Shown piece by piece: positions 37,838 to 42,638 of a DNA stretch of 64,000 nt. The first letter of the stretch is position 1; each line of letters starts with the position of its first letter. The translations under genes were made by a program, and so were the position numbers. Origin of the DNA: Halococcus salsus (GTDB taxonomy: Archaea > Halobacteriota > Halobacteria > Halobacteriales > Halococcaceae); assembly GCF_009900715.1 (NCBI RefSeq), contig NZ_JAAAJC010000001.1, positions 1,043,216 through 1,107,215 of the forward strand, written 5' to 3'. The notes beneath the pieces were generated by a model. It saw only the letters and a program-made list of their open reading frames with translations, was not told the DNA's origin and ran no database searches.

Positions 37838-38203
37838 ATGTCGCGTCGTTACCCGGGTACGGGGTCGTCGCGGGTCCCCGTCGTCGGGGCCCTCGGACGC
37901 ACTGATTCGGTCGATCGAGCGAGCGTCGTCGGCAGCGCACCGGTGATCGCCGGCACGGGATTCGTGCTGAGCCGTGCGGTCGCCATGGTCGTCGCCGGCG
38001 GCTCGGGGCTGACGTTCCTCTGGGGACTGGTCATCGGCCTCGGGTTCGCCACCGCCGGCGTCGTGGTGCTGGCGTCGAGCGAACGAACCGGCGACCGGAT
38101 GGGACCGGGTCGGTCGCCAGTCGAACGGATCCCGCTCACGACCGCCGGCGGCGTGCTGTTGCTCTCGCTGCTCACCGGCGTCGTGCTCGGCACCGTACTC
38201 TGA
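37838..38203 (+). CDS. Uncharacterised three-helix membrane protein upstream of the CHAT gene
   Basis: A 121-residue protein. A soluble, basic N-terminus (MSRRYPGTGSSRVPVVG) is followed by hydrophobic segments at about 30-50, 52-78 and 98-120. ATG 37838 has a good TATA box upstream. It precedes the CHAT gene by 132 bp on the same strand. Whether it is a partner or substrate of that protein is untested. No known family. Confidence 0.6.
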   Translation: MSRRYPGTGSSRVPVVGALGRTDSVDRASVVGSAPVIAGTGFVLSRAVAMVVAGGSGLTFLWGLVIGLGFATAGVVVLASSERTGDRMGPGRSPVERIPLTTAGGVLLLSLLTGVVLGTVL

Positions 38204-38335
38204 ACGCCCGCGACGGTCGTAGCCCGGACCGTCCTCGCCACCGAAACCCGTGAATTTTTAACGGTGCGGCGTATCTCGACGCCAGTGACAACGGCGGGAC
38301 CGACGACGGACGAGATGACGATGCGCTGGTGATAG

Positions 38336-40411
38336 ATGGGAACCGTGTTCTTCGAACCCGACGCCGAAGGCGGACTCGCGGTGGTGGACCCGGTAGAGCG
38401 GCACCGATACGTGCTCTCGACACCGGAGTCGGTCACGCCCGAGCCCGCCGAAACGGAGTCGTTCGAACGCCCGGTCGAGGCCGCCGTCTCGGTCCGCACC
38501 AGTTCGTTCTCGCTGCCGAACATCGTACTCGCCACCGTCCGTGACGGAAACGACGTGGTCGCCCACGCCGAACACTTCGCGGACGAGCACCTGCCCGAGG
38601 GAACCTACAGCATCGAGCTGAGCGCCCCGATAAAACTCTACTTCGTGGTCGAGAGCTCGGTGGACCTGACCGCCGACGCCGAACGGATGTCGATCGAGTT
38701 CGGCGAGGAAGCCGACGTATTGGTGGGCGCGCGCTCACACCACGACCGGCCGGCGGCGACGGTGACGACGACGTCGGACCCGGAGCACATGATGCAAGCG
38801 ATTTCGACATTCGGTTCGGCACTCAAGACCACCTCGCCCGAGCGCTCGTATCCGACCCTTCGAGGACACCCACCGACGGTCGAACTCGGCGAGGAGATCG
38901 ATCTCGCGGGGCTCGAACCGCCCGACACTGGGGTGACGATCGAAGTTCCCGCCGACCTCCGGTCGGTGTTCGTGGTCGCGCCGCTAGCGTACTACCTCGG
39001 CGCGCGAGTGGTTCCGGGCGACCCACCCCGAATCCGGACCGAGACGGGATTCGAGTACGAACTGGACGGCCCTGCCGGCTTCGAGACCACCGTCGAACGC
39101 ACCCTCAAGCGCGTCTTCTTCCTCGACTGTCTCTGCCGGTCCGAGGGTCGGTCGCCGGTCGACCTCCACGAGCGGTCGGCGCTGGAGTCGACGCTGGGGC
39201 TCGATTTCGGCGCGCTCTACGACCGTCCGCTGGCGGCCCGGCTCGAAGCCGCCCTCGACATCCCCTACGAAACCATCGAGCCACACCTTCCCCAGTGGAA
39301 GCTCACCGCCCACGTCGAACCGACCCCCGACAGCGTCGAGATGCTCCCCTTCCTCGTCGACGACCTCGCCGTCGTTCGGTCGCCGCACACCCACGAGGTC
39401 GCGGTCTCGAACGTCTGGGCCGCCACGCTCGACGAGTTCCTTCGGGGGAGCCGTTCCGAGACGAGCCGGGGCGTCGCCGCCAGCTCTACCGACCCTCCAC
39501 AGTTCGTCCGGCTCGCGGCGGCGGACTCGCTCGAACAGGCGTGGATCGGCGACGGCACGCCGCTGGGCGCGAGCAAGGCCACGACTGAAGCCCATCGGAA
39601 CCGACTCGACCGCACGCCGACCGAGGGCGACAGCACCGTGCGAGTGGTCTGCAACAATGCCGAGATGGGCGAGGAACAGGGGCTGGTCGATACGATCTAC
39701 GGCGACCGCGACCTCCCGTTCGACGTCGCCGTCGAGCGCGACCTCACCGTCGACGAACTCCGCGAGGCCCTCGCGGAGCGAACCGACCTCCTCCACTACA
39801 TCGGCCACATCGACGGGACCGGTTTCGAGTGTCTCGACGGGGCGCTCGACGCCGCGACGTTGGACTCGGTCGGGGTCGACGCCTTCCTGCTCAACGCCTG
39901 TCAGTCCTACGAGCAGGGGATGAGCCTGATACGGAAGGGTTCCATCGGTGGCATCGTCACCCTCTCCGACGTCTTGAACCGGAACGCGGTGGCGATGGGC
40001 CGGGCGTTCGCGGGGTTGCTCAACGCCGGCTTCCCGCTGCGGGCCGCCCTCGAGATCGCCCGCGACGAGATCATCGTCGGCGGCCAGTACCTCGTGGTCG
40101 GGGACGGTGGGTTCACCATCGCTCACGCCGAGAGCGGGACGCCGAACCTCTACGTGGCCGAGCGGGCGGACGACGGGCTCCGGGTCGAACACCGGACCTA
40201 CCCGACGGCCGAGCGCGGGATGGGGAGCCTCTTCGTCCCCTGCGTCGACGGCGAGAGCGAGTACCACCTCTCGTCGGGGACGGTCAGGACGTTCGAGTGC
40301 TCGGTCGCCGAGCTCGAACGGCTGCTGGCGGCCGAGGGGGTCCCGGCGAAGGTCGACGGCGACCTCCACTGGGACGGCCGGTTCGTGGCGGCCGACTACG
40401 GACCCGAGTAA
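38336..40411 (+). CDS. CHAT domain protease-like protein
   Basis: A 691-residue protein with a C-terminal CHAT (caspase-HetF associated with TPRs) domain, about residues 440-640. The caspase-type pair is visible: His491 in DLLHYIGHIDG and Cys522 in FLLNACQSYEQG, with IGGIVTLSDVLNRNAVAMGRA after it. The N-terminal 430 residues are a beta-rich region without TPRs that I cannot assign. Haloarchaea carry a distinctive CHAT family of this size and function unknown. Bacterial CHAT enzymes include separase-like and Craspase proteases that act in defence and cell death. An A/T-rich AATTTTTAA at 38253-38261 may be the promoter. The regulator TbsP follows. Confidence 0.85.
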   Translation: MGTVFFEPDAEGGLAVVDPVERHRYVLSTPESVTPEPAETESFERPVEAAVSVRTSSFSLPNIVLATVRDGNDVVAHAEHFADEHLPEGTYSIELSAPIKLYFVVESSVDLTADAERMSIEFGEEADVLVGARSHHDRPAATVTTTSDPEHMMQAISTFGSALKTTSPERSYPTLRGHPPTVELGEEIDLAGLEPPDTGVTIEVPADLRSVFVVAPLAYYLGARVVPGDPPRIRTETGFEYELDGPAGFETTVERTLKRVFFLDCLCRSEGRSPVDLHERSALESTLGLDFGALYDRPLAARLEAALDIPYETIEPHLPQWKLTAHVEPTPDSVEMLPFLVDDLAVVRSPHTHEVAVSNVWAATLDEFLRGSRSETSRGVAASSTDPPQFVRLAAADSLEQAWIGDGTPLGASKATTEAHRNRLDRTPTEGDSTVRVVCNNAEMGEEQGLVDTIYGDRDLPFDVAVERDLTVDELREALAERTDLLHYIGHIDGTGFECLDGALDAATLDSVGVDAFLLNACQSYEQGMSLIRKGSIGGIVTLSDVLNRNAVAMGRAFAGLLNAGFPLRAALEIARDEIIVGGQYLVVGDGGFTIAHAESGTPNLYVAERADDGLRVEHRTYPTAERGMGSLFVPCVDGESEYHLSSGTVRTFECSVAELERLLAAEGVPAKVDGDLHWDGRFVAADYGPE

Positions 40412-40714
40412 GTACAGCTGTTGGTCGCCGAGGGGTCTCGTCGCGCGAGCGCCGTGGTCGGTTCGACACCGGACTGGGAACGGGCTCCCGACACCGACCC
40501 TCGTTCGTCCGACATAGCGGGCGGAGCGACGACCAACGGATTCATAAGCGTTGTTGATCCTTTCGAACAGGATCCCCCGTGGTCCCCGAGGACGAACGAG
40601 CGGTTTTTATCCGAAATTTATGCACGATTCGGGTTACGGTTCCGGAAAATCCGGGCATTTCAGACCGGGATGGCCAGTGAAATTAAATACCGCGAACGCC
40701 TAGTGGTCAGTCGC
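40412..40714 (+). promoter_or_regulatory. Intergenic control region before tbsP
   Basis: About 300 bp without a gene. AATTAAAT at 40681-40688 is a TATA box 27-34 nt before the tbsP ATG. CCGGA-AAA-TCCGG at 40642-40654 is a perfect inverted repeat just upstream of it and could be an operator, for example for autoregulation. A second A/T-rich patch (GGTTTTTATCCGAAATTTAT, 40603-40622) may hold another promoter. Nothing else is recognisable in 40412-40600. Confidence 0.5.
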
Positions 40715-41551
40715 ATGAGTTCCCAGAACCTGATCGAGACGGACGTTGCGAACATCTACCGCGCCGCGCTCGCCGACGCGGCCGGCGAGTCGTTCGTGGT
40801 CGCGGCGTCGGCGACGTCGGTCGAACGCCTGGTGTCGGTGCTCGACGACCTCGACGACCCGCCGACGGTTCGGCTGTTCGCCCGCGAGGACACGTTGAAG
40901 ACGGTGATGGACGACTTCATCGTGGCCAGCACCGCCGCCGACCTCATCGAGAACGAAACCCTCTCGCTCCGCATCGCCGACGGCGACGGCATGAGCCCGC
41001 TGGTGATCACCGAGGGGACGGTGTTCTCGGTCGTCACCGCGGGTGGACGGGTTGCCGGGCTCGCCACCGACGACGAGACGTTCAGCGAGACCGCCCGCGA
41101 GGAGTACGCGGACGCGTGGGCGGACGCCGCCCCCTACACGCTCCGGACCCCGCCGCTCTCGCGCGTGCGAGCGACGATGGAGGAGTCGTTCGGCCCCGAG
41201 ATGGTGGCCGATTTCGACGGGGTGCTGGCCTCGCTCGACACCGCACGCGGCGGCGACGACGGGCTCGACGAGGTCACGATCAGCCTGCTCGTCGCGGCCA
41301 AGAACGAGGAGCTCCTCTACGACATCTCGAAGTGGGGCGAGGACACCGGCGTGGCGAGCAAGGCCACGTTCTCGCGAACCAAGACCCGGCTCGAAGAGAT
41401 GGACCTGATCCACACCACGAAGGTCCCGATCGACGTCGGTCGACCACGGCTCCGGCTCCTGCTCGGCGACGAGCGCCTCGCCGACGCCGACGCCGACGAG
41501 CTCGCGTCGGTCGCCGGGGGGCTCCTCTCGGCGAACGGTGCGGCCGCCTGA
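40715..41551 (+). CDS. tbsP: Transcriptional regulator TbsP (DUF5821)
   Basis: A 278-residue regulator. The N-terminal two thirds is a ligand- or protein-binding domain. The C-terminus is a winged helix: LLVAAKNEELLYDISKWGED, SKATFSRTKTRLEEM and IDVGRPRLRLLLG. It closely resembles Haloferax volcanii TbsP, which together with TrmB controls glycolytic/gluconeogenic genes such as gapII. Leaderless start at 40715; longer frames to 40421 lie in the promoter region and are rejected. Located directly behind the CHAT gene. Confidence 0.78.
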   Translation: MSSQNLIETDVANIYRAALADAAGESFVVAASATSVERLVSVLDDLDDPPTVRLFAREDTLKTVMDDFIVASTAADLIENETLSLRIADGDGMSPLVITEGTVFSVVTAGGRVAGLATDDETFSETAREEYADAWADAAPYTLRTPPLSRVRATMEESFGPEMVADFDGVLASLDTARGGDDGLDEVTISLLVAAKNEELLYDISKWGEDTGVASKATFSRTKTRLEEMDLIHTTKVPIDVGRPRLRLLLGDERLADADADELASVAGGLLSANGAAA

Positions 41552-41568: not shown

Positions 41569-41742
41569 CTACCCGAGTACGACCGGGATCCCGAAGACGA
41601 CCACCAACCCGATCAGCAACACGACGAACCCGATCCCCGCCGCCCGCGCCGAGAACGGGCTCATCGGGGCGGTCTCCCGGGGGTCGTCCGCCGCGTTCGA
41701 GGCCAGTCCGCCGCCGGTCGTCGTCGTCATGTTGTCGTCCAT
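41569..41742 (-). CDS. Small single-helix membrane protein
   Basis: A 57-residue protein with a polar N-terminus (MDDNMTTTTGGG) and one C-terminal helix (GIGFVVLLIGLVVVFGIPVV). A second Met four codons on (41730) is also possible. Haloarchaea have many such short proteins with an ETAPMSPF-like stretch before the helix. Divergent from hisF; function unknown. Confidence 0.6.
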   Translation of the reverse strand: MDDNMTTTTGGGLASNAADDPRETAPMSPFSARAAGIGFVVLLIGLVVVFGIPVVLG

Positions 41743-41825
41743 GCCGGGGGCGAGGGGTGGGGGGAGTAAGTGCTTCGCGGTGACGGCAGGGCTTTTACCG
41801 CCGGTCGCCGACCATCCGGTATCGA

Positions 41826-42638
41826 ATGCTGACAAAGCGCATCATTCCCTGTATCGACGTCGACCTCGACGAGGACGGCGAGCCAGCGGTCTACACCGGC
41901 GTGAACTTCGAGGACCTGACCTACTCCGGCGACCCGGTCGAGATGGCCCGGGAGTACAACGCCGCCGGCGCGGACGAGTTCGTCTTCCTCGACATCACCG
42001 CCTCGGCCGACGGCCGCGCGACGATGCTCGACGTCGTGTCGCGGGTGGCCGACGAGGTGTTCATCCCCCTGACCGTGGGCGGCGGTATTCGGACTCGGGA
42101 CGACATCAAGGAGACGCTTCGGGCGGGGGCGGACAAGGTCTCGATCAACACGGCGGCGCTCGACAGACCCGAACTCATCACGGAGGGGGCGGCGGCCTTC
42201 GGGAACCAGTGTATCGTGATCTCGGTCGACGCCCGTCGACGGTTCGACGGCGAGGGCGACCACTATACGACCGTGGACGGCGAGTCGTGCTGGTTCGAGT
42301 GTACGGTGAAGGGCGGGCGCGAGGGCACCGGCGTCGACGTCGTGACGTGGGCGCGCGAGGCCGAGGACCGAGGGGCGGGCGAACTGTTCGTCAACTCGAT
42401 CGACGCCGACGGCACGAAGGACGGCTACGACGTTCCGCTCACGCGAGCGGTCTGTGAGACCGTCTCGACACCGGTGATCGCCTCCTCGGGCTGTGGCGGA
42501 CCCGGCGACATGGACGAGGTGTTCACCGAGGCGGGCGCGGACGCTGCGCTCGCGGCTTCTATCTTTCACTTCGGCGAGTACTCCATCGGGGAGGTCAAGG
42601 AGTACCTCGCCGACCACGACGTTCCGGTCCGGCGTTAG
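41826..42638 (+). CDS. hisF: Imidazole glycerol phosphate synthase cyclase subunit HisF
   Basis: A 270-residue TIM barrel that with HisH converts PRFAR and ammonia to imidazole glycerol phosphate and AICAR in histidine biosynthesis. Catalytic Asp11 (PCIDVD) and Asp135 (ISVDARR) are present, and phosphate loops LTVGGGIRT and [10 protein letters not shown] are complete. The loop after strand 1 has a short haloarchaeal insertion ([13 protein letters not shown]), so the usual lysine of that loop is absent. Stands alone; no other his gene is in the window. Confidence 0.95.

Follow-up and report, generated by a model that had tools for sequence, protein, structure and literature searches.

The Halococcus salsus genome carries, directly upstream of the gene for the transcriptional regulator TbsP, a gene for a predicted CHAT-type cysteine protease, and the question that this locus raises is whether the two work together or are merely neighbours. 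We addressed this using a 64,000-nucleotide stretch of the genome (contig NZ_JAAAJC010000001.1, positions 1,043,216 to 1,107,215 of the forward strand), which we refer to as the window. Functional coupling between CHAT and TbsP is, in our judgement, probable. The original prediction for this DNA gave the correct coordinates and strand for both genes and for a membrane protein reading frame upstream of them, all on the plus strand, and its naming of TbsP as the same-strand downstream neighbour is supported by a score of 384.4 bits against the NF047393 equivalog cut-off of 300. The two genes are:

38336-40411, plus strand: predicted CHAT-type cysteine protease, 691 residues, clade B, in the seat upstream of TbsP
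40715-41551, plus strand: TbsP transcriptional regulator (NF047393 equivalog; PF19138 and PF23336)

We evaluated the linkage at 58 TbsP loci chosen by hand in 56 genomes; most come from a genus's first genome, and several genera contribute two or more. At 42 of the 58 loci TbsP is immediately preceded, on its own strand, by a CHAT gene; these loci cover 34 of the 45 genera and 10 of the 11 families, and the neighbourhood conservation proposed earlier as a check is thus present across haloarchaea. In the other genera, the pair is part of a block with folD and glyA divergently upstream and often a YcaO gene downstream; the YcaO protein following TbsP is SagD-like (PF02624; L083, L087, L088 and most clade-A loci). 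Most of the haloarchaea examined have TbsP within this one-carbon/YcaO block.

The phylogeny of the proteases separates two lineages that share this one seat. In a FastTree tree of 150 proteins, 38 rows fall in clade A, 109 haloarchaeal rows in clade B and three rows form the outgroup. Clade A is ancient; all 38 of its rows are TbsP-linked, usually in a folD-glyA-CHAT-TbsP-YcaO block, and the only TbsP-linked rows of the distantly related clade B are the four from the window's genus, which has lost both clade A and that block. Neither glyA nor YcaO was found near TbsP in five loci of this genus. The position after TbsP, where YcaO is usual in other genera, is occupied in the window and in genome G005 (L082) by two other genes, which in the window are:

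41569-41835, minus strand: DUF7550 small protein
41826-42638, plus strand: HisF

Within clade B, the window protein groups with the second CHAT copy of its own genome (L143, 74% identity), and L081, L134 and L008 group with L146. L143, L145 and L146 come from a common locus, next to a gene that by eye looks like gcvPA, and the TbsP-linked copies of the genus are taken to be copies from there. We evaluated these groupings with an IQ-TREE analysis of 26 rows and approximately unbiased (AU) tests, for groups chosen with the first tree already in view. Placing all nine TbsP-linked rows in one clade gave a p-AU of 1e-139, and doing so with the genus's four TbsP-linked rows gave 7e-43. On these sequences a single origin of the TbsP-linked copies is strongly rejected. 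Given that the AU tests reject single clades, B proteases came to the TbsP seat independently of clade A; in the window's genus, this happened either twice, or once followed by gene conversion.

Four further genomes of the genus (G005, G034, G099 and G133) have an empty seat. The CHAT gene of G061 is interrupted by contig ends. In G069, TbsP and the membrane protein are on separate contigs, and each of these contigs has a CHAT gene or a piece of one. Since the adjacency has been re-created by a protease of a different clade, functional coupling is favoured over inherited synteny, and we read this re-creation as the strongest evidence that the coupling suggested by these sequences is real.

The best-surviving alternative is that CHAT and TbsP are simple neighbours, with inherited gene order followed by chance or a recombination artefact in the window's genus, and with CHAT acting as a housekeeping protease unrelated to TbsP. 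We consider this rather unlikely, but a number of observations speak for it and weigh against coupling. Gene order appears slow to change here, since the conservation of glyA beside TbsP equals that of CHAT, and the clade-A linkage taken alone could be inherited order because it is part of the larger glyA block. CHAT is absent from 16 of the 58 TbsP loci, with no obvious consequence, and therefore neither gene needs the other close by; where CHAT is missing, glyA often still adjoins TbsP, which argues that CHAT was lost from the seat rather than moved. We found no TbsP residues that separate genomes with a linked CHAT from those without. The two genes also have separate promoters, for which the following elements were read by eye:

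38252-38261, plus strand: TATA-like box of the CHAT gene
40672-40689, plus strand: conserved TbsP promoter element, here GGCCAGTGAAATTAAATA, in TbsP's own TATA region between CHAT and TbsP

At most of the 58 loci, the TbsP promoters share a remarkably conserved element, approximately GGCCANNAAAATTAARTA, 25-45 bases before the start codon (by eye). It is present with or without an adjacent CHAT, and may possibly be an autoregulatory site overlapping the TATA box. One regular expression for the element matched upstream of CHAT at 0 of 42 loci, a weak negative from too strict a pattern that matched only 39 of 58 TbsP promoters, missed the window's own, and was applied to a region positioned from the open frame's first start codon.

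Against simple neighbourhood stands the finding that, although the block has broken up in the window's genus, the other CHAT clade sits at the same place and points the same way. For a genome of about 3,500 genes, we put the odds of a chance same-strand insertion directly upstream of TbsP at about 1 in several thousand per event, and the tree requires two such insertions, or one plus gene conversion. CHAT adjoins a TbsP paralogue elsewhere too, on a Halobaculum salinum plasmid (L141 4990-8091), where it is divergent from a TbsP-family DUF5821 gene beside a histidine-utilisation operon. A general linkage of clade B to TbsP-family genes was considered and rejected: apart from this plasmid, it was not seen among 83 flanked CHATs that are not TbsP-linked. 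At the hut-DUF5821 locus of H. halophilum (L142), a prolyl oligopeptidase stands in place of CHAT.

A further point against coupling with a CHAT protease is the Pfam score of the window protein: PF12770 (CHAT) gives 16.3 bits, below the cut-off of 24. Two haloarchaeal relatives pass this cut-off (G072, 34.1 bits; G064, 28.1 bits). In view of the low score, we compared a family alignment of 23 rows with 16 canonical CHAT domains from other archaea using hhalign, which returned a probability of 97.6 and an E-value of 3.7e-12 over 181 columns, with the His and Cys motifs aligned. An AlphaFold model from an 18-row alignment (mean predicted local distance difference test (pLDDT) 68.7, predicted template modelling score 0.43, residues 320-415 of low confidence) matched SAVED-CHAT (E 2.6e-6), separases, DdvA, Craspase TPR-CHAT and procaspase-3 in Foldseek. 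The profile match, the relatives above the cut-off and the fold matches together make the CHAT assignment solid despite the sub-threshold Pfam score, and the protein almost certainly has the CHAT fold with its dyad intact. Protease activity is likely. The parts of the domain are:

39536-40126, plus strand: residues 401-597, CHAT domain (clan CD, caspase fold)
39806-39808, plus strand: codon of the predicted catalytic His491, motif LHYIGH
39899-39901, plus strand: codon of the predicted catalytic Cys522, motif LLNACQSY

Both residues of the dyad are present at the numbers originally predicted, and the pair is retained across the family: His and Cys are both kept in 148 of 150 distinct relatives, where loss in most orthologues would have spoken against the prediction. 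The exceptions are L139, from outside the haloarchaea, which has neither residue, and L170 2047-3963, whose frame ends before the Cys column. Asn520, two residues before the Cys, is likewise found in 148 of 150 relatives. Caspases have a neutral Gln at the comparable place, and the likeness is no more than a hint as regards cleavage after Asp. Comparison of the window gene with the same-locus copy of G085 gave a ratio of non-synonymous to synonymous substitution rates (dN/dS) of 0.23 over 396 codons, which shows purifying selection on the window CHAT.

At least one CHAT copy is present in 269 of 293 Halobacteriales genomes, often with two to four. In a phylum-wide draw the family was found in 51 of 294 genomes, of which four lie outside the order, all in one family and at 24-29% identity. 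Plasmid records with the family number 25, all haloarchaeal by name. Frames shorter than 450 residues (11 in one set) and duplicates (6) were removed before counting, with the same rule in the second set; neither the 102-row nor the 150-row set is a random sample, as both favour best hits, with roughly one further row for each genus. Three distant relatives (L137, L138 and L139) come from the non-halobacterial family f25 of the phylum. Genus g26 has tandem CHAT arrays of a single B subclade, with three genes at L198 3179-10037 and two at L170 2047-6883.

The N-terminal part of the protein was originally described as unassigned and free of tetratricopeptide repeats (TPRs). Pfam and TPR models found no match in its first approximately 400 residues, and no SAVED Pfam match was found in the chain. 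Folded alone, residues 1-318 reach a pLDDT of 89.7 and form two regions:

38336-38746, plus strand: residues 1-137, beta-sandwich domain (AlphaFold); its likeness to a galactose-mutarotase-like supersandwich is weak and not significant
38747-39289, plus strand: residues 138-318, alpha/beta region with no assigned fold; R176, L217, A223, D264 and R268 are invariant

Foldseek with this model gave no match at E 1e-3. The best VIA Z-score was 7.7 (122 residues, root-mean-square deviation (rmsd) 3.3); nearly all VIA rows covered residues 1-137, and their scores are in a range that the tool rates as uninformative. The empty fold list for residues 138-318 is no evidence of novelty.

With the whole model, VIA matches fall mostly in residues 404-597 and place the protein among known clan CD systems. 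The best is the transmembrane anti-sigma factor DdvA (8rw5, 8rot; Z 16.2, 168 residues, rmsd 2.7), a case of a CHAT-like domain in a transcription regulator; in contrast to DdvA, the window protein lacks a strong membrane segment, its hydropathy over 19 residues peaking at 1.38, and archaea are not known to have sigma factors. Separases (5fby, 9hn0) share the clan CD fold at Z 15.3 and caspases 3, 7 and 8 at about 10; the likeness to both is one of fold, as a sequence search of PDB chains with the window protein gave no significant match. SAVED-CHAT (8tl0; Z 14.4, 168 residues) and the Csx29/TPR-CHAT of Craspase (7y85; Z 13.8, 161 residues) share the caspase-fold His/Cys domain, whereas the beta-sandwich and alpha/beta N-terminus of the window protein, in which no TPR or SAVED was found, is unlike either. 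Unlike these systems, the family is centred on haloarchaea and lies outside a CRISPR or known defence context.

These comparisons bear on a second alternative, that TbsP, or a CHAT-linked TbsP-family protein, is itself the substrate and is cut in its linker to switch its regulon, much as Craspase cuts Csx30. The linker between TbsP_N and the helix-turn-helix (HTH) core is almost invariant (TARGDGDGLDEV, residues 176-187), the adjacency has been re-created, and CHAT domains govern transcription elsewhere, in DdvA and Craspase. The linker is equally conserved where the TbsP locus has no CHAT, however, and HTH function explains its conservation equally well, and we hold this alternative to be improbable. 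An abortive or defence protease, in keeping with the CHAT domains of CRISPR and other defence effectors, is very unlikely, as no PADLOC family matched at E <= 1, the family is near-universal rather than patchy, no phage record carried a family member and no viral contig was confirmed, and the clade-A locus is stable among folD, glyA and YcaO genes.

Returning to functional coupling, we lean slightly towards a mechanism in which the predicted CHAT protease is regulated, sequence-specific and in the same pathway as TbsP. The N-terminal beta-sandwich and alpha/beta region would respond to a metabolic or stress signal, or to a bound partner, by turning on the C-terminal CHAT domain. The activated protease might cut one or a few cytosolic proteins, and TbsP would set the dosage of the protease or be itself modified by it, thereby tying the proteolytic event to the carbon and one-carbon state of the cell. 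TbsP reportedly represses a gluconeogenic gene in Haloferax. Elsewhere, members of clade B may be wired to another partner, often DUF7504. That a CHAT protease has been paired with a metabolic regulator more than once suggests that archaea use regulated proteolysis as one of their levels of transcription control.

DUF7504 is beside 31 of the 83 flanked CHATs that are not TbsP-linked (24 directly upstream on the same strand) and beside 0 of 42 TbsP-linked ones. At 31 of 83 it is rejected as a universal CHAT partner. It occurs in 107 of 117 genomes of the order, and the window's genus is nearly without it, with one weak hit in G000, the window's genome, and none in G005, G034 or G099. The loss of clade A and DUF7504 in a genus with a B protease at TbsP fits a change of partner in one lineage. 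DUF7504 had no relative among PDB sequences at E <= 1. A second gene cluster lies upstream of B CHATs at 13 loci, and its L040 member has no Pfam match.

The membrane protein encoded upstream had been proposed as a protease target:

37838-38203, plus strand: 121-residue membrane protein reading frame (hydropathy), limited to the window's family; in the genus it marks TbsP loci both with CHAT and without

Its hydropathy profile shows three to four hydrophobic windows that overlap, in residues 36-78 and 103-121, which makes the description as a three-helix protein plausible. Of 195 genomes 14 have it, and every one of these belongs to the window's family. In G005, G034, G099 and G133 it directly adjoins TbsP with no CHAT gene, and so it is tied to the TbsP seat and not to CHAT. 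As it stays with TbsP even where CHAT is lacking, and does not occur outside the family, we rejected it as a CHAT partner; it is probably not the protease's target.

The CHAT family may also bear on the caspase-like activity of Haloferax volcanii. One report describes very strong caspase-like activity in haloarchaea and, in H. volcanii, a dominant LEVD/VEID/IETD-cleaving, zVAD-sensitive activity; its authors ask for identification of the responsible protein and raise the proteasome as a possibility, and the sections covered here name no gene for the activity (PMC3615174). For that same organism group, in which a clan CD protease was the missing piece, a conserved, dyad-intact caspase-fold family provides a concrete candidate for the protein asked for. 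All 15 genomes of genus g51 have exactly one CHAT gene, of clade B, with intact dyad motifs, DUF7504 immediately upstream and a convergent HalX response regulator downstream. We take g51 to be Haloferax, since its genomes give the best matches to the H. volcanii dihydrofolate reductase: of seven sampled, four reach 91-93% and two 78%, and the seventh, G241, has no match at E 1e-50. The g51 TbsP locus examined (L119) has no CHAT. The single B-clade CHAT of Haloferax is a candidate source of the activity; CHAT enzymes need not cleave tetrapeptides, which calls for caution. It seems doubtful that the family is both the missing archaeal 'caspase' of H. volcanii and, at the TbsP locus, a protease-transcription factor switch rebuilt at least twice from different clades; if true, the switch would couple regulated proteolysis to central carbon and one-carbon metabolism. 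A search of the open-access literature returned no paper on a haloarchaeal CHAT domain, an H. volcanii CHAT or caspase-like gene, or DUF7504, and as far as that literature goes the haloarchaeal CHAT family is apparently so far without study.

The TbsP/DUF5821 family is itself expanded in the window's genus (g1): there are 11 matches to TbsP in the window's genome, G061 and G069 and 10 in G099, and one to four in most others.

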